Shown here: one piece after another, positions 8,854 to 15,642 of the stretch
How positions within the stretch are numbered: the stretch's first letter is position 1
How the letters are laid out: each line of letters begins with the position of its first letter
Origin: Desulfuromonadales bacterium
GTDB taxonomy: Bacteria; Desulfobacterota; Desulfuromonadia; Geobacterales; Pseudopelobacteraceae
Reading direction: 5' to 3'
Assembly: GCA_013349325.1 (NCBI GenBank)
Contig: DUZX01000014.1
Location: 1 to 64,000 of the forward strand
DNA length: 64,000 nt
Made by a program: the position numbers and the translations under genes
Notes under the pieces: generated by a model
Told to the model about the DNA's origin: nothing
Seen by the model: the letters and a program-made list of their open reading frames with translations, nothing else
Databases searched by the model: none

Positions 8854-9573
8854 CTACCTTAAAATGCTCTTCGCCTGAAGCGGAAAGTGCAGGTCGCTAC
8901 CGTAGCGGTCGAAGACGTTCAAGCGCCGCAGCGTCTCGGCAGCGGTTCTGGCGCGCTGGCCGTAAAGTCCGTTAAAACTCCCCAGGTCCCCTTGAAACGA
9001 ACACCCCAGATCACGCAGATATTCCAAAAGCGGATTGCCGGTAGACTCCGTCGTGAAATGTTGCTTTTCCTGCGGCCGCTTCTGCACATGCAGCAGGCGG
9101 CGCAGTGAGCTCCAGATGTTACGTCGTTCTGTCCGTTGCAGTGCCGGTTCCAGCAGAGGACAGCGTTCGGGATGGGCAATCACCGGAGTGAAACCGGAGC
9201 GGACGATGCCGTAAAGAAGTTGACAGGCTGATTCGGCGGGAATGCTTGACGGAATTTCGATCAGCAGCAGGCGGCTGTCACCGAGGGGTAACGGATCTCG
9301 CAGGAGTTCCGGAAGGCGTTCATCAAGATAATATTCGCGTCCCGGTTGCAGCAGGAGCGGGATGCCATGCCGGGTGATCGTCTGCTGTAGTTGTTCGACT
9401 CCTTGGCGAACCTGCTGGTTACTGGCCTCGAAACGGCCACGCATCAGATGCGGCGTACAATAAACGGTGCTGAAGCCGGCCTGTGAAAGCAGACCGGCCA
9501 TGGTAAGCGACTGCTCCGGGTCGCTCGGGCCGTCGTCGAGCCCCGCCAGAATGTGGCAATGCCAATCGATCAT
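8854..9573 (-). CDS. PHP-domain tyrosine-protein phosphatase, CpsB/YwqE type
   Basis: A 239-residue PHP-fold protein starting MIDWHCHILAGLDDGPSD, with the metal-binding HxH (H5, H7), YCTPHL, AHPERCP and SDLHFPL motifs in the order of CpsB/Wzb-like manganese-dependent tyrosine phosphatases. Those enzymes usually act on a bacterial tyrosine kinase that controls polysaccharide export; no such kinase is in this window. Its start overlaps the monohaem cytochrome stop by four bases, so it is coupled to the cytochrome locus upstream, an unusual partner. Confidence 0.85.
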   Translation of the reverse strand: MIDWHCHILAGLDDGPSDPEQSLTMAGLLSQAGFSTVYCTPHLMRGRFEASNQQVRQGVEQLQQTITRHGIPLLLQPGREYYLDERLPELLRDPLPLGDSRLLLIEIPSSIPAESACQLLYGIVRSGFTPVIAHPERCPLLEPALQRTERRNIWSSLRRLLHVQKRPQEKQHFTTESTGNPLLEYLRDLGCSFQGDLGSFNGLYGQRARTAAETLRRLNVFDRYGSDLHFPLQAKSILR

Positions 9574-9932
9574 TTCTGGTTTTCATCAAGTACATAATTG
9601 AGAAATACGACGATATCGCGGATCTCTTTTTTATCCATATCGGAATTCGGTTTACGCAGCATCTTAATGCCGTAGGCCTTGACGGCCTGCTTGTTGAACG
9701 GCTGGCCGGTGATCGGCGCGCGTCCGGTCTGGACCGCAATGACAACCCGCTCCATCGTATGACACTTGATGCATTTGACGCTCATCAGGTTGAAAGTCGG
9801 CTTAAAGCTCTCCTGGATACTGTCAGCGTCAAAGTTCATCTTTTCACCGCGTCCCTTGGTCTTGATGCGGGCCTCGGACAGCGAAACCGTTACGATGATT
9901 ATGAGTGCTACCAGCAGTGACAGTCGTTTCAT
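9570..9932 (-). CDS. periplasmic monohaem c-type cytochrome
   Basis: 120 residues: a cleavable-looking signal (MKRLSLLVALIIIVTVSLSEA) and a single CxxCH haem site (CIKCH), followed by VVIAVQTGRAPITGQPF and a late Met in KMLRKPNSD that could be the sixth ligand. The C-terminal helix IRDIVVFLNYVLDE fits a class I cytochrome fold. It is the last cytochrome gene of a co-directional set (porin-like 9984, decahaem 11549) and could shuttle electrons in the periplasm. That role is inferred from neighbours. Confidence 0.8.
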   Translation of the reverse strand: MKRLSLLVALIIIVTVSLSEARIKTKGRGEKMNFDADSIQESFKPTFNLMSVKCIKCHTMERVVIAVQTGRAPITGQPFNKQAVKAYGIKMLRKPNSDMDKKEIRDIVVFLNYVLDENQK

Positions 9933-9983
9933 AGAGGGTGCCTCCTGTATATATTCATTTCCTGGGGCGAAAGGCGTGCGTCC

Positions 9984-11522
9984 TTAAAACCCGAAGGTCA
10001 GCCCCAACGTGCCAAGGCGATTAATGGCACTGGTAACCAGTTCGTATTTATATTCTGCCACCAGTTTCAGATTTTCATAGGGGTTGTATCCGACGGTTGC
10101 TATATAGCGACGGATGTACTGGTCGCTGAAACCCTGTTTCTGCGGAGAGGCTACCTGCTGCAGGTATTCGTAGCGACAGGCGGCCAGCAGGTTACTGCGC
10201 AGTGCATACTCAGCTTCAATCGTTCCGCTCTTGGAGATGACTCTGGTCCACTGGTTGACGGCGATGGTATCAACTTTGTCATCGTCCCCATAGCCCCCCA
10301 GAAGACGCAGCCGGAGTGATTTGTAGAGCAGTTCGCTATCCAGGCCGACGCGATAAAAACTGTTTTTGGGATCATTCGAGTTGGCGCTGCCGTTTTTACC
10401 AACATATCCGTAGCCACCGATATTTATCGTCAGGAAATCGAGAATACTCTCTTCCTTGGCCAAGTCGATTTCCGGTTCATTGGCCAGATAATCGGCGCCG
10501 CCGAATTTGTAGGAGACATGACCGTAACCCTCTTTGCTGTTCTGTCCTTTGCGATTAACGGCTCCGACCGCAACAAAGAAGCGCTTGCCCAGAATGGAAT
10601 TCAATTCCAGAGCATCCTGGGTTTGGTCAATCCGGAATACGGACTGCTGGCCGGTAGACTGCCCGCCGACAGTATAGGTATAAGGGAGGTAATTGTTGGT
10701 GACGGAGAGTTTGTTGTTGGTTTTCCAGAGACCGAGTTTGGGCTGCATGCGGCCGACCTTCAGGTTGACGGGGGTGTCCAGCAGATGCCGCCAGGAGACG
10801 AAAAATTCGGTCAGATCGGTTTTATTGTTGGTTGAAATCACACTCGTATTGCCGGTGCTGGCGGGGGGCTGTTCGCTGTAGGCCACGTAGGTGGCAAAGA
10901 AACCGACTGTTTCGCGGAAGTGACCACCGGCGTGCAGTTTAAAAGCGCGGGTCGAAAAATCGAACTCATTGACGGCTTTGTTGTCATAAACAATGTTGAG
11001 AGCGCCGGTAAACGAGATCGGAAGTTGTTCCGGGATAGCTGATAAAAGCAACCCTTCAGACTTCTGTTCTCCGGCCGGTTGCGGCGTCTCTACTGCCGAA
11101 AGAGTTGCTTCGGGAGCGGGGGGCTGCGCCGGTTCTGCCGTTTCAGTGGTGGTCATGGCACCATTTTTAAGTTTACGCAAAAGCTCATCATCCCCAGCAC
11201 CCTGAATGTCCGGCGAAGCGCCGACCGGTGCCGCAGGTGACGCAACCGGTTTGGGAATCGTTACCGCTTTGGCGATCGGTGCTGGGGGCGGCTCCGTATC
11301 TTTGGCTGTTTTTTTTACTTTACTGACAAAGACATACGAATTTTTCAGGAAGGCGTCACCATATTCATTTAACTCCGGAAAAATGGTGTGGCAGGTACTG
11401 CATTCCACCTTGTAGGAACGAGTAAAAGCTGGAATGGCATGGGCGCTGTCCGGTGCAAAAGCAGCTACCAGAAGTGCAAAGAATAACAAGAACGGAGATG
11501 CGTGCATAAGGTTACGTATCAT
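9984..11522 (-). CDS. outer-membrane beta-barrel protein with an N-terminal haem c motif
   Basis: 512 residues. Signal peptide (FLLFFALLVAAFAPDSAHA), then a single CxxCH (YKVECSTCHTIF) within a FTRSYKVEC...PELNEYGDAF segment, a Pro/Ala-rich linker (about 95-165), and a long region of alternating strands ending in an aromatic beta-signal (LGLTFGF). This looks like a porin with a covalently bound haem at its periplasmic end. It is next to a decahaem lipoprotein and a monohaem cytochrome, the components of a trans-outer-membrane conduit in Geobacter. Haem attachment and pore formation are inference. Confidence 0.75.
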   Translation of the reverse strand: MIRNLMHASPFLLFFALLVAAFAPDSAHAIPAFTRSYKVECSTCHTIFPELNEYGDAFLKNSYVFVSKVKKTAKDTEPPPAPIAKAVTIPKPVASPAAPVGASPDIQGAGDDELLRKLKNGAMTTTETAEPAQPPAPEATLSAVETPQPAGEQKSEGLLLSAIPEQLPISFTGALNIVYDNKAVNEFDFSTRAFKLHAGGHFRETVGFFATYVAYSEQPPASTGNTSVISTNNKTDLTEFFVSWRHLLDTPVNLKVGRMQPKLGLWKTNNKLSVTNNYLPYTYTVGGQSTGQQSVFRIDQTQDALELNSILGKRFFVAVGAVNRKGQNSKEGYGHVSYKFGGADYLANEPEIDLAKEESILDFLTINIGGYGYVGKNGSANSNDPKNSFYRVGLDSELLYKSLRLRLLGGYGDDDKVDTIAVNQWTRVISKSGTIEAEYALRSNLLAACRYEYLQQVASPQKQGFSDQYIRRYIATVGYNPYENLKLVAEYKYELVTSAINRLGTLGLTFGF

Positions 11523-11548
11523 CAGATATTTCCCTCCTCGATGTTCAT

Positions 11549-13795
11549 TTACGGTGCCGGTCGGTGATCGCTGGTATAGCTTTTAATAGTACCGTCTGCA
11601 TTATTAGCGGTTACGATGCTGCCGCAGAGGTAGTAGCTGGCCTGCTTCAGCTCTTCAGAAGTCAGATATGCCGCATACTGGAATGTGTCATTCTCTCCAC
11701 GGATTCCTACCCCTGCATAAGTATTGAGACGGGGGTACTGCCTGTTTCTGCTGTCGTCGGCGCGCGTAAATGTTTCTGCCGGATCGCAGACCGATTTGTT
11801 GAGTGTGCCATCGTCGAGCCAGTCCATGGAATCAAAGATCAGCCGCTTGACGTAGCGGCGGTTATGGGCAAACGCACCCGGGTCGTAATAGAGCATGTAA
11901 AAATTGTAGACCGATCCCATGGTGTAAGCGGCAGAACGAAGCGGATAGGTTGCGCCGGTGAGCGGATCCGTAAATTGCGCGCCGAGAATATAAAAAACGA
12001 GTCCGTTTAGTGGCTTATCGCTGTCGTCGCTCTTCGTACTGCTGCGGAGCCAGGGCTGAACTTTTACTCCCGTTATATTGCTCCCGTACCAGTTTGATGG
12101 AGTACCGGGGCGCCCTTCTGCATCTTCAATTACGCGGGCCGTCCTGGAATCAACCGCAAAAGACAGCAGGCGAGCGAAGGCCTTGGCAGCCGCCTTATAC
12201 TGAACTTTCTGCAGCTCAAGCAGGTTATAGCTGCTTCCGCTGGCCGGATCGATGCCACTGTCATTCCACTCCATCTTTCCGGCGGCATCCGTGTGGCAGG
12301 CGGCGCAGGCTTTGCTGGTGACGCCGGTGATCGGATCTGAAGGTGTTGACCCGTTACGGTAGGTTGAGCTGGCGTTGCGGTTGACCGGCAGGAAGGTGTG
12401 TGAGGTGCCGTCATTACCCTTGGCATTCATGTGGCAGCCAACGCAGGGGCCATAGCCGCGACTGTCTGCCGCCAAACCCTGCGTCCCTTCGGGTGAACGC
12501 AGCGGATTGGTGCTGCCGGTACCGATAATGTCGTGTGTGAAGTTTACGTTGCTGTAGCCCTGCAATTTGGAAGAACCGCTACTGTAGAATTCAAATCCGG
12601 CACCGACGATCGTGCCGTTTTTATCAGTCGGACGGAAAATGAGTTCTGCTGCACCCCGGAAGTGATTGACAATCCGGCCGGCTTTGTCGAGTTCAAGCCC
12701 CCGGATGTCGGCCATCTTGACATCCAGACCGGTCATGCGTCCTGAATGGCAGGCGACGCATATGTTGGAAGCGCCTACATCGGGGAAGGTCAGGCCGAAG
12801 CTGCGGATAGCACCGCCCTTCATGGCAACTCCCGCTCGTGAGGAAAAATTGTAGAAGGTGGTAACACGCGGGACACTGCGTAGTTTGTAGCCATAGGCAC
12901 TGCCGTTGCCGTTATCATGGCAGGCGTTGCAGTTGGTCAGTTCCTTGCTCTTGTCGGAGGATATCTTGCTCCTGAAGCCGGTCACTCCGGTCGGGTAGTC
13001 ATCCATGCGGAACGGTTTTCCGGTTTTCGGGTCGTTGGCCCCAAACGGGCTCAGGTCGCTGAAGCCGGAACTCACGTACTGAATAAAGCCGGTAGTAGTG
13101 TGACAGCGCAGGCAGACCTGGTATTGTCCGTTGTTACTGTCACTCAGTGCCTGGGACGCTTTCAGGGTAAAGGAGCCAGCTGTCTTGAAGTCAAAGTCAT
13201 CGCGCGTTTTGGTTCTGAATTTGCTGAAGCCGCTGACCGTGCCATGTCCGCTGGTGGCCCAATCCCTAAGGTTGTTACGGGCACTGGTGGTATCGTGGGG
13301 ATTGTGGCATTTACGGCAGTTGCGCTCATACTGCGATGAGACATAGCTGCCAGGATAGTTGACGGAGGTGTTGTTGTTAAAGTGCGCCTCTTTAACCCCG
13401 GCTGTCGGAAAGAGTCCGTTTGTCCGGGCGTGACATTTATCACATTTTCCGTCGCGGTCAGGATTGGTGCTGACGTGATTGACGGTAGTTGGTGTCCCGG
13501 CCGGTGTTCCGGCGTGGCAGCGGTTGCAACTGGCCGGATGCCCTGCTTCCGGTTCATGGCAATCGGCACAGCCGGCGGCGTTCATGCTGTTGTGATGGGA
13601 CAGCTTCCATTCATCGACAATATTTACTCCGCTGCCGGGACTGATCGCCCCCTGGTGACAATCTATGCAGCTGTGAGAAGCCTCCAGTTTGCTGCCACCG
13701 GGCGCTGCCACAGTCTTTTCACCGCAGCCTGAGAGAGCGGATACAGACAGAAGGAGTACAATCAACAACCGGGAAAATGGTGTGAGAGAAGGCAT
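11549..13795 (-). CDS. decahaem c-type cytochrome lipoprotein
   Basis: 748 residues. The signal sequence ends in a lipobox (SALSGCGEK), so the protein is likely anchored in the outer membrane. I count ten CxxCH haem sites: CIDCH, CADCH, CNRCH, CDKCH, CRKCH, CLRCH, CNACH, CVACH, CVGCH and CAACH. Four lie in the first 140 residues, and the last about 240 residues have none, an uneven layout. Geobacter outer-surface cytochromes of the OmcB kind accept electrons through a porin; the adjacent barrel protein makes the same arrangement plausible. I cannot name an orthologue. Confidence 0.88.
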   Translation of the reverse strand: MPSLTPFSRLLIVLLLSVSALSGCGEKTVAAPGGSKLEASHSCIDCHQGAISPGSGVNIVDEWKLSHHNSMNAAGCADCHEPEAGHPASCNRCHAGTPAGTPTTVNHVSTNPDRDGKCDKCHARTNGLFPTAGVKEAHFNNNTSVNYPGSYVSSQYERNCRKCHNPHDTTSARNNLRDWATSGHGTVSGFSKFRTKTRDDFDFKTAGSFTLKASQALSDSNNGQYQVCLRCHTTTGFIQYVSSGFSDLSPFGANDPKTGKPFRMDDYPTGVTGFRSKISSDKSKELTNCNACHDNGNGSAYGYKLRSVPRVTTFYNFSSRAGVAMKGGAIRSFGLTFPDVGASNICVACHSGRMTGLDVKMADIRGLELDKAGRIVNHFRGAAELIFRPTDKNGTIVGAGFEFYSSGSSKLQGYSNVNFTHDIIGTGSTNPLRSPEGTQGLAADSRGYGPCVGCHMNAKGNDGTSHTFLPVNRNASSTYRNGSTPSDPITGVTSKACAACHTDAAGKMEWNDSGIDPASGSSYNLLELQKVQYKAAAKAFARLLSFAVDSRTARVIEDAEGRPGTPSNWYGSNITGVKVQPWLRSSTKSDDSDKPLNGLVFYILGAQFTDPLTGATYPLRSAAYTMGSVYNFYMLYYDPGAFAHNRRYVKRLIFDSMDWLDDGTLNKSVCDPAETFTRADDSRNRQYPRLNTYAGVGIRGENDTFQYAAYLTSEELKQASYYLCGSIVTANNADGTIKSYTSDHRPAP

Positions 13796-13821
13796 GAGGG
13801 CTCCTTATCAGTGGGCGTTGA

Positions 13822-14571
13822 CTATTTTAACAGACGATACAGATAGGTGAAGGTGCCGCCGACGGATATACCTGACAGCAGGCCGGCGTAGCGACTGACT
13901 TCCTGCGAAAATTGGACCCGCCCTGAGAATTCAGCTATATCCGTTGATTCATCCGTCATCAAGGCGATGATGTCCTGCCAGTCCTTGTCCCACTGGAAGA
14001 TCTGCAGGTAGAGTTCAGAGCCGCGCCAGAGCAGGATGCAGACAAATACCACCCCGAAGGCGATGAAGCCGCGCGATATCTCGGAATCTTTGATGGCAGC
14101 ATAAATTTTTCTGACCAGCTCGATATTCATGAGGCAGAGGAAAACCCAGATGGCATTCTCAACCATTCTGATGTTTCTGATGGTGTTGGGGCTAGGGACC
14201 GGATTGAGCAGGAGAAAACCGGCCGAAAGCGCAAGGACAACAACGGTGCTGAGATACACAATCAGTTTATTGCCGGAAATTTCGAACGTGCGGCAGAAAA
14301 CGTAGTATTCGAGAAATCCATGCGTGATGGTCATGATTGCAATGGTACCGACGATGTAGTGATAGGCGGTCAGCTTCTGATAGTTGGACCACGGATTGAT
14401 GCCGTAGGCCTGGCTGATGAAAATCAGAAAGAAGCCGATCGAGATACTCGTCCAGACACGGGCATTGCCGATGCTGAAGTAGAAGCTGATGGCCCCCGCC
14501 AGACCCCAAAAAATGACTTGGACGAGATCGAAGGTGTTCATTTGGGCCAGTAGTTCTATAAACTTGTCCAT
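13822..14571 (-). CDS. multi-pass inner-membrane protein in cytochrome locus
   Basis: 249 residues with about six hydrophobic helices (roughly 15-35, 40-57, 70-95, 102-120, 138-152, 168-185) and a hydrophilic C-terminal tail. Histidines at YHY and THG within the third helix could bind haem b, but the pattern is not one I recognise. It is the gene upstream of the decahaem lipoprotein (26-base gap), so it may belong to the same transcript and link the quinone pool to the periplasmic carriers. That link is speculation. Confidence 0.65.
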   Translation of the reverse strand: MDKFIELLAQMNTFDLVQVIFWGLAGAISFYFSIGNARVWTSISIGFFLIFISQAYGINPWSNYQKLTAYHYIVGTIAIMTITHGFLEYYVFCRTFEISGNKLIVYLSTVVVLALSAGFLLLNPVPSPNTIRNIRMVENAIWVFLCLMNIELVRKIYAAIKDSEISRGFIAFGVVFVCILLWRGSELYLQIFQWDKDWQDIIALMTDESTDIAEFSGRVQFSQEVSRYAGLLSGISVGGTFTYLYRLLK

Positions 14572-14592
14572 ATATCCTCCCGTTTGTCCCGA

Positions 14593-15558
14593 TTAAAAAT
14601 TTGCTTTGGCAGTTGTAATGACGGAGTTGAGCTTTTCCATCATCAGTCGTATGTTGGTGCCGCTGATCAGGAGTTTTGCAGCCCGTTCGATATCGCTTAC
14701 AAAAAGCACTGCACCCTGTTCGTTAAGCAAACAGCTGTTTCCGCCATAGTCTGCCAGGGCTTTATCGACAATCCCGCGCCCAACCCGGCCGACGTATTCG
14801 CCGACAATTGTGCGTACCTGTTCCTCCAGTTCGCCCAGTTTCAGCGCGGCATTCTTTTTTTCACGCTCCAGGCGCTCCAGACGAACGCTGTCGAGTTCGG
14901 ACTGGTGCCGGTTAACGCAGTTGTCCCAGATACTCTGTATGTTCGCTACTTCCAGCAGGTTGATACCCATCAGCTCTTCAACACTCTGAGTGGAAAAGAG
15001 GTCAATTTTTGCACCCGGCAGGCTGGCTATCTTCTGGGATTCCGAGGAAGATGTTTCGATCTCGCTTGAGCCGTCGTGAAAAAACCCGAGCGGAGTTCCC
15101 TCTTTATAAAAAATCATGGCGGAACGTTGGTCGGTGTAGATGCGCAGGCAGCCGTTCATACGGTCATTGCGAATCTTTTCAAGCAATACCTTGATGTCGA
15201 CCAACTTCAGATCCTGGGCTTTATAGAGCGTTTCGCCCTCGAGCAGGGCATGGATAGACATGGTGAGGTCTTTGGAAAGTTTATAGACATTCAGGGCGCC
15301 GCTGCCTGAAGTTACCATCAGTTCTGCCAGCGAAGAGATAGCTTCAAAACCGGTCCGGCGGGCTCCGACGAGCCCTTCAAGCAGGGCGCTGATCAGTTTG
15401 CCCGCTTCAAAAACAAGAATAACGGTACTGTTCTGAAATACGAAGCTGGCATACCCGGTAAAACTGCCGTTGGCAAGTTTTGTAAGAATCTCCGGAAGTT
15501 TCAGTTTCGAAACAGCCAGATTTTCAAATAAGGGGTTGCCCTTGGGGAGCAGGAACAT
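14593..15558 (-). CDS. DUF4388-like signalling protein
   Basis: 321 residues from the ATG preceded by AGGAGG (an in-frame ATG 30 bases upstream lacks a better site). The N-terminal half contains two copies of a fold beginning LPEILTKLANGSFTGYASF and IKVLLEKIRNDRMNGCLRI, the pattern of DUF4388 (PATAN-like) domains found in delta-proteobacterial signalling proteins. The middle is a coiled coil (residues about 210-245, ERLEREKKNAALKLGEL), and the tail resembles a roadblock-like end. No enzyme motif is seen. It heads the co-directional cytochrome genes. Confidence 0.6.
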   Translation of the reverse strand: MFLLPKGNPLFENLAVSKLKLPEILTKLANGSFTGYASFVFQNSTVILVFEAGKLISALLEGLVGARRTGFEAISSLAELMVTSGSGALNVYKLSKDLTMSIHALLEGETLYKAQDLKLVDIKVLLEKIRNDRMNGCLRIYTDQRSAMIFYKEGTPLGFFHDGSSEIETSSSESQKIASLPGAKIDLFSTQSVEELMGINLLEVANIQSIWDNCVNRHQSELDSVRLERLEREKKNAALKLGELEEQVRTIVGEYVGRVGRGIVDKALADYGGNSCLLNEQGAVLFVSDIERAAKLLISGTNIRLMMEKLNSVITTAKANF

Positions 15559-15642
15559 ATCACAGCCTCCTGGAAACATCGGATGCAAAATTTGGATAAC
15601 CTACTGTTATTTCCAAGCCATGTCAAACCTTTAGGTAATTAA

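Follow-up and report, generated by a model that had tools for sequence, protein, structure and literature searches.

Can a single haem, carried by a porin, serve to move electrons across the outer membrane of a metal-reducing bacterium, and if so, for what purpose? This question is raised by a gene row on the minus strand of contig DUZX01000014.1 (assembly GCA_013349325.1) from a Desulfuromonadales bacterium, of which positions 1 to 64,000 were analysed (hereafter the window). The row encodes a decahaem lipoprotein (DECA), a fused cytochrome-porin (BARREL) and a small monohaem cytochrome (MONO). Fe(II) oxidisers are known to have fused cytochrome-porins, whose one haem is believed to do its work without help from a multihaem protein. 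The gene set of these Geobacter relatives probably passes electrons through the outer membrane via its haem-bearing pore protein. To judge from the neighbouring genes, it may serve the cell for sensing its environment as well as for respiration. The way in which Geobacter and Shewanella locate solid electron acceptors has been described as unclear (PMC5789149).

Composition and Conservation of the Gene Set

Sequences and predicted structures define the following features of the three proteins:

11549..13795, minus strand: DECA, a 748-residue lipoprotein with an LSGC lipobox (Cys24) and ten CxxCH motifs, the first Cys of each being residue 43, 76, 90, 118, 160, 228, 289, 346, 451 or 497
9984..11522, minus strand: BARREL, a 512-residue fused monohaem cytochrome-porin with CxxCH at residues 41–45
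11325..11438, minus strand: Cyc2-like haem head of BARREL, residues 29–66 (CxxCH codons 11388–11402), assigned by hhalign of head against head
11034..11324, minus strand: Pro/Ala-rich linker of BARREL, residues 67–163, the longest in the alignment
9987..11033, minus strand: 16-strand, OprO/OprP-like beta-barrel of BARREL, residues 164–512, ending in Phe
9570..9932, minus strand: MONO, a 120-residue secreted cytochrome with one CxxCH (codons 9759–9773) and an invariant M91

A preliminary description of the locus had reported a decahaem lipoprotein, a CxxCH-bearing barrel and a small monohaem cytochrome in one direction, and its coordinates and descriptions turned out to be right. Among the frames of at least 90 residues in the window, CxxCH occurs only in DECA, BARREL and MONO, with ten, one and one motifs, respectively. 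The same description had noted that a large periplasmic multihaem protein is missing, and this holds within the window: neither a periplasmic cytochrome with 5–14 haems nor a decahaem protein of the MtrA type was found there, and the sole ten-motif protein has a lipobox.

The conservation of the set was followed in two overlapping samples. The best 80 of 90 loci in named genomes comprise 59 of the BARREL family (L031–L089) and 21 that match BARREL only in the head (L090–L110, hereafter Cyc2-like); L001–L030 are the 30 best loci of a whole-protein search, and their organisms overlap with those of L031–L089. A DECA homologue was found no more than 2.5 kb away from BARREL in each of the 54 testable loci of the named set and in 16/16 from the whole-protein set, a locus being testable if there is enough sequence beside the barrel (for DECA, five of the 59 loci with less than 1.4 kb upstream were dropped). 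MONO was found in 56/56 testable loci with no distance limit set, after three of the 59 were dropped at contig ends (L044, L052, L059). Under a distance rule the figures for MONO are 26/27 and 47/55, since overlapping frames were missed in L024, L054, L066, L068, L074 and L082; the remaining cases are L083 (3.1 kb upstream, other strand), L084 (2.5 kb downstream) and L089 (1.9 kb upstream). The conservation of the gene set is thereby supported. In contrast, a frame with at least four haem motifs stands within 3 kb in only one of the 21 Cyc2-like loci, whose neighbours were scored by haem motifs and not by DECA homology; these loci were found via the BARREL family and are not a random sample of Cyc2, and six of them have less than 3 kb on one side. 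The DECA gene is upstream of BARREL on the same strand in 28 of the 54 loci, divergent in 25 and downstream in one (L084). Such variable order argues for a kept function rather than for one frozen operon.

In the order to which the host belongs, BARREL is detected at E ≤1e-20 in 73 of the 141 genomes, representing 18 of 29 genera, and MONO in 89 genomes, 72 with BARREL and 17 without; BARREL without MONO is seen in one genome, at a contig end. The kinship of the genomes inflates these counts. Three more distant loci (L082–L084) come from records titled Deltaproteobacteria or Deferrisomatales.

The haem sites are well kept. The BARREL alignment contains the window protein and 55 of the 58 barrels longer than 330 residues from L031–L089 (L062, L070 and L080 were left out), and in its 56 rows C41, C44, H45 and P49 are invariant, with L51 at 90% or more. 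The loci L031–L089 were found by patterns containing the head motif, so the conservation of that motif among them is partly by construction; a barrel frame with CxxCH is also present in 30/30 loci of the whole-protein search. In the DECA alignment (the window protein and 43 of 49 listed), all ten sites align in 44/44 rows, two of them having the form CX3-6CH instead of CxxCH in 11 and 8 rows. As the sites align across the rows of both families, the motifs are not due to chance.

The Fused Cytochrome-Porin and Cyc2

The preliminary description treated a porin with its own haem as something new. The haem-bearing porin itself is confirmed, but it is not unprecedented: BARREL is a distant relative of the fused cytochrome-porin Cyc2. 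Comparison of the BARREL head with the Cyc2-like head by hhalign gives 99.8% (E 3.4e-29), while the reversed control gives 2.5%. The barrels alone match, profile against profile, at 72.8% (E 3.2e-5), with at most 1.5% in six controls (one reversed and five shuffled), and the whole profiles match at 99.6%. The Cyc2-like rows have no Pfam match, and Porin O/P is therefore unusable as common ground. When the window's own genome was searched with the Cyc2-like profile at E ≤10, BARREL was the only place found.

The kinship has limits. The signature AxPxFAR[QK][TY], which precedes CxxCH and is described as exclusive to Cyc2 (PMC8406198), occurs in 0/58 members of the BARREL family, and it is exact in 13 of the 21 Cyc2-like loci. 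A maximum-likelihood tree separates the 56 family rows from 16 Cyc2-like rows by a single long branch with 100/100 support; the tree is unrooted, carries a long-branch warning and is built from rows that do not include the characterised Cyc2 and Cyt572 sequences. Taken together, head homology, the missing signature and the separate group make BARREL a Cyc2-type fused cytochrome-porin with a single haem that nevertheless falls outside Cyc2 in the sense of the signature. With Cyc2 and Cyt572 (PMC8406198, PMC7029218, PMC10654088) it shares a signal peptide (judged by eye in BARREL), a single N-terminal CxxCH followed by PxL, a homologous head and a 16-strand OprO/OprP-like barrel. It differs in lacking the signature, in forming its own group, in a mostly longer linker, and in its recurring partners, the decahaem lipoprotein and MONO. 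Searches for Cyc2 by the head only could mistake BARREL genes for Fe(II) oxidases.

The same kind of head was also observed in shorter proteins. A 249-residue protein at L122:6274-7023 (BARREL profile E 1.2e-16, no Pfam match) stands in a gene row that is pilin-like by eye, and short head proteins of this sort, in frames of about 250–280 residues, are present in several other genomes.

Barrel Fold and Linker

The barrel, for which the preliminary description had proposed structure prediction as a check, is borne out by an AlphaFold2 model with 16 strands over residues 169–511 (mean predicted local distance difference test score, pLDDT, 73.5; predicted template modelling score, pTM, 0.70). After re-alignment of the model, OprP is at the top (Z 26.9, root-mean-square deviation, rmsd, 3.8 over 314 residues), followed by OprO (Z 26.7) and other porins at about 23–25; Foldseek's own ranking puts OmpT-type porins first. 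With the 56-row profile, a PDB search finds OprO, a porin of the phosphate type, at E 5.5e-4. Profiles are needed here, since phmmer with the single BARREL and DECA sequences found no relative in the PDB. Similarly, the window protein alone has no Pfam match, and Porin_O_P (PF07396) is matched by 13/56 members at E ≤0.1 (best 8.9e-6) and the LbtU siderophore-porin model by 9/56 (best 4.2e-5).

The preliminary description also placed the haem site at the periplasmic end of the porin. The motif stands, and its periplasmic location would follow from its N-terminal position; the model itself does not place the haem, since pLDDT is below 50 at residues 24–51, the stretch that holds the motif. The stretch between the haem His and the first strand region measures 122 residues in the window protein, 44–122 in the family (median 84) and 26–48 in the Cyc2-like set. 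A haem wire running inside the pore was considered and rejected, the 16-strand barrel being too small and only one haem being present. In the otherwise variable linker (window 11034–11324), a GxGD motif recurs in 32 of 56 members and may be a docking site.

The Decahaem Lipoprotein and the Monohaem Cytochrome

DECA is a lipoprotein with ten haem sites, as had been proposed: the lipobox Cys is kept in 44/44 aligned rows, the next residue being Gly in 43 and Ser in one, and the ten sites align as described above. Its profile finds 6i5b first in the PDB (E 1.1e-8, best stretch 98 positions), then the 278-residue cytochrome 28pb, octahaem and pentahaem nitrite reductases, and MtrF. The first of these is OcwA, a terminal reductase of the NrfA-like class on the surface of a Gram-positive cell (PMC6703420). 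For the AlphaFold2 model of DECA (pLDDT 70.6, pTM 0.79), Foldseek found nothing with E ≤0.001; among 13 re-aligned chains, the S-layer undecahaem cytochrome 6qvm leads with Z 10.1 and rmsd 3.9 over 248 aligned residues. DECA thus resembles two known surface cytochromes, one by profile and one by model, but differs from both in haem number and over most of the chain. These likenesses suggest that DECA is likely to be on the cell surface. A small protein with three CxxCH motifs was seen between BARREL and a divergent DECA in two genomes belonging to one genus (L020:2954-3274, L022:2972-3253).

MONO has a signal-like start, one CxxCH and invariant later residues (alignment of 38 of 57 sequences and the window protein). 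Among them is M91, a possible haem ligand. Its match to Pfam Cytochrome_CBB3 is weak (E 0.029) and below the cut-off of that model. Homologues of a distant group have CX6CH in place of CxxCH (L082:2370-2741, L084:14075-14446). In some loci MONO adjoins a periplasmic protein of about 250 residues of the phosphate-binding-like PBP_like_2 type, assigned by Pfam in L054:11784-12542 and L113:5564-6322 and by eye in L123:6477-7235 and L089:6893-7642; a chemoreceptor gene is close by in L054, L113 and L089.

Signalling Neighbours

Upstream of DECA, the window contains two further genes that recur together:

13822..14571, minus strand: TMP, a 249-residue multi-pass membrane protein, hydrophobic and of no known family
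14593..15558, minus strand: a 321-residue DUF4388-domain protein (PF14332, E 7.2e-6), counted from the ATG that most homologues seemingly use; the open reading frame begins at 15588

TMP is the multi-pass membrane protein that had been noted upstream of the cytochrome genes, and it has no Pfam match. The whole row DUF4388-TMP-DECA-BARREL-MONO spans 9570–15588 with gaps of 21, 26, 26 and 51 bp in that order. DUF4388 corresponds to PATAN, a domain of signalling proteins. In the window's own family (f1), 27 genomes have TMP upstream of MONO at a distance of no more than 6 kb. The gap between the two is 3.3–4.2 kb in the 22 genomes with BARREL and 57–159 bp in the five without, so that DECA-BARREL behaves like a cassette between TMP and MONO. 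Distances between MONO, TMP and chemoreceptor genes are measured between match edges, not gene ends. Besides, one f1 genome (G116) has a second TMP and MONO pair at L128:5875-7040, with match edges 17 bp apart and neither DECA nor BARREL beside it.

In families f2–f4 (65 genomes), the neighbour is a methyl-accepting chemotaxis protein (MCP), a chemoreceptor for which the query has PF00015 (E 3.1e-45) and HAMP. Its N-terminal sensor part is found in 53 genomes, MONO in 50 and both in 50: MONO without the sensor family occurs in 0/50, the sensor family without MONO in three, and the 12 genomes with neither show no MONO match even at E 0.001. In 42 of the 50 genomes with both, MONO and the MCP gene share a strand, with MONO upstream and within 2 kb; in many of them the match edges are 8 bp apart, and BARREL is present in 36 of the 42 and absent from six. 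In the other eight, the two are not within 2 kb of each other. Here, too, the counts are inflated by relatedness among the genomes. The MCP gene does adjoin trpA in the loci read, and the idea that the link is merely a shared place beside trpA is rejected in part by this co-occurrence.

Two known systems are of interest in this connection. Shewanella requires both mtrBC/omcA and an MCP for gathering at minerals (PMC5789149), and in G. sulfurreducens the MCP network EsnABCD is needed to colonise electrodes (PMC5585712). In those cases, extracellular electron transfer proteins or MCPs serve gathering at minerals or electrode colonisation, but the cited excerpts do not describe conduit and receptor genes as one gene set, unlike the arrangement reported here. 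A putative haem circuit encoded beside a chemoreceptor would bear on the finding of solid electron acceptors.

Comparison with Known Electron Conduits

The preliminary description had set the locus apart from the known conduits of Geobacter, and the published descriptions bear this out (PMC6148476, PMC4245776). Like OmbB-OmaB-OmcB and ExtABCD/EFG, the set joins a barrel and a multihaem lipoprotein in one gene set within the same order. Unlike them, as those papers describe them, it has no periplasmic multihaem cytochrome, its barrel is smaller and the haem is within the porin chain. Porins of Geobacter-type conduits are predicted to have 18–22 strands and MtrB has 26, so that the 16 strands of BARREL fall outside the values for both the OmbB-OmaB-OmcB kind and the MtrB type. 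None of the names OmbB, ExtB and ExtI is among the NCBIfam matches. If electrons do pass by this route, it represents another layout for crossing the outer membrane, with no sheathed haem wire.

The novelty of a haem-bearing porin is also countered by GM18_3465 of Geobacter sp. M18, a ten-haem porin-like protein already proposed (PMC4245776). Both have haem sites inside a porin chain and both occur in Geobacter relatives, but GM18_3465 has ten sites in long loops and 21 predicted strands as against one N-terminal haem and 16 strands in BARREL. PCC3 and PCC4 of Fe(II) oxidisers (PMC5566968) similarly bring a porin, cytochromes and an inner-membrane protein together in one cluster. Their haems reside in separate multihaem cytochromes, and their membrane proteins have two HX13H motifs, none of which is seen by eye in TMP. 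TMP shows one His pair with 12 residues between, and the idea that it is a di-haem-b quinol oxidase comparable to those of PCC3 and PCC4 was set aside.

No description of the BARREL family, its decahaem partner or their link to MONO and the chemoreceptor was found in searches covering openly licensed papers or in the consulted passages of the papers cited here. The word "porin" is absent from the main text of a six-genome cytochrome comparison (PMC2825233), and the phosphate-selective porin reported beside a sensor kinase pair in the G. bemidjiensis genome is in a different setting (PMC2996986). Fused cytochrome-porins are thus known already, and what is new is the company of DECA, MONO and the chemoreceptor: a divergent branch of the Cyc2 kind tied to a ten-haem lipoprotein in roughly half the genomes of a metal-reducing order.

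Proposed Mechanism and Alternatives

We consider with moderate confidence, from the sequences and models, that DECA, BARREL and MONO make up an outer-membrane electron relay built on a fused cytochrome-porin. Sequence and model establish the three proteins with their haem motifs, the barrel fold, the relationship of the head to Cyc2-like proteins and the linkage of the genes, whereas the surface position of DECA, the contacts between the proteins, and the flow and direction of electrons are what we infer here. DECA, lipid-anchored and probably on the surface, would exchange electrons with something outside. BARREL would provide a 16-strand porin with its one-haem head tethered at or below the periplasmic mouth, and MONO, a soluble one-haem carrier, would take electrons from the head or give them to it. 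The distance between DECA and the head might be bridged by DECA reaching into the pore mouth, or by a small redox carrier or metal ion passing the pore, as proposed for Fe(II) in Cyc2. The relay is perhaps sensory rather than respiratory. MONO would then pass on the outside redox state, either to the chemoreceptor or, within the family of the window, to TMP and the DUF4388 protein, and the set as a whole, DECA to BARREL to MONO to receptor, would act as an outside-in redox sensor. We put this forward tentatively, as a proposal that may well fail. Sensing is favoured because the recurring inner-membrane partners are receptor-like. If true, the cell would possess a dedicated outer-membrane circuit for monitoring the redox state of minerals, electrodes or partners.

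Several observations weigh against these proposals. One haem cannot span the membrane, so that the step from DECA to the head is left unexplained, and the haem head of BARREL is modelled without confidence. DECA could lie on the inner leaflet; since its model has no Foldseek match at the threshold given above and NrfA-type reductases and MtrF score as well, its likeness to OcwA and the S-layer cytochrome reflects a broad class of multihaem proteins. MONO is not dedicated to the relay, for it occurs without BARREL in 17 of the 141 genomes. As regards sensing, the genome from which the window comes has no member of the MCP sensor family, and TMP is present in 61/141 genomes but lies within 6 kb of MONO in only the 27 mentioned; the TMP and DUF4388 pair also exists without any of the cytochromes (L124, L125, L126, L129).

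The host's order is rich in metal reducers, which speaks for a respiratory porin-cytochrome conduit in which MONO feeds BARREL and DECA and thereby reduces Fe(III), electrodes or partner cells. DECA bears a likeness to terminal reductases of the cell surface, and conduits usually combine a porin with an adjacent multihaem lipoprotein (PMC6148476, PMC4245776). Yet the set includes no large periplasmic multihaem cytochrome, the 16-strand barrel with one haem offers no sheathed haem wire, and MONO keeps its signalling partners in 11 genomes that lack BARREL (six with MCP, five with TMP). Moreover, ordinary pcc homologues have also been reported from Oryzomonas, one of the genera carrying the set (PMC7285026). 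We therefore regard respiration as possible but rather unlikely, and sensing is put slightly ahead of it.

In organisms with Cyc2, the role of small carrier belongs to Cyc1, to which MONO is comparable, and this lends something to the idea of an inward oxidase of the Cyc2 type: Fe(II) or a small donor would enter the pore and reduce the head haem, and MONO would carry the electron in. The hosts of BARREL are mostly anaerobic Fe(III) reducers, which argues the other way. The head homology and the OprO/OprP-type barrel are as in Cyc2 (PMC8406198), but the signature is missing in 58/58, the family forms a separate group on a long branch, and its decahaem partner is fixed, whereas 20 of the 21 Cyc2-like loci lack a neighbour with at least four haem motifs; an oxidase of this type seems improbable. 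Less probable still is a specific uptake porin for an anion, a phosphate-like compound or a metal chelate, with the haem and the decahaem partner reducing the cargo. The matches to Porin_O_P (13/56) and LbtU (9/56) at E ≤0.1 and the PBP_like_2 binding protein near MONO in some loci would fit such a porin, but no transporter genes were noticed beside BARREL in the loci read, and the binding protein adjoins a chemoreceptor gene or occurs without BARREL.

Other Neighbouring Genes

Downstream of the set, a PHP-type gene of the CpsB/CapC type (8854–9573) overlaps MONO by 4 bp. It was considered as a member of the system and rejected: such a neighbour is found in 1/60 loci, and its presence here is taken as chance.

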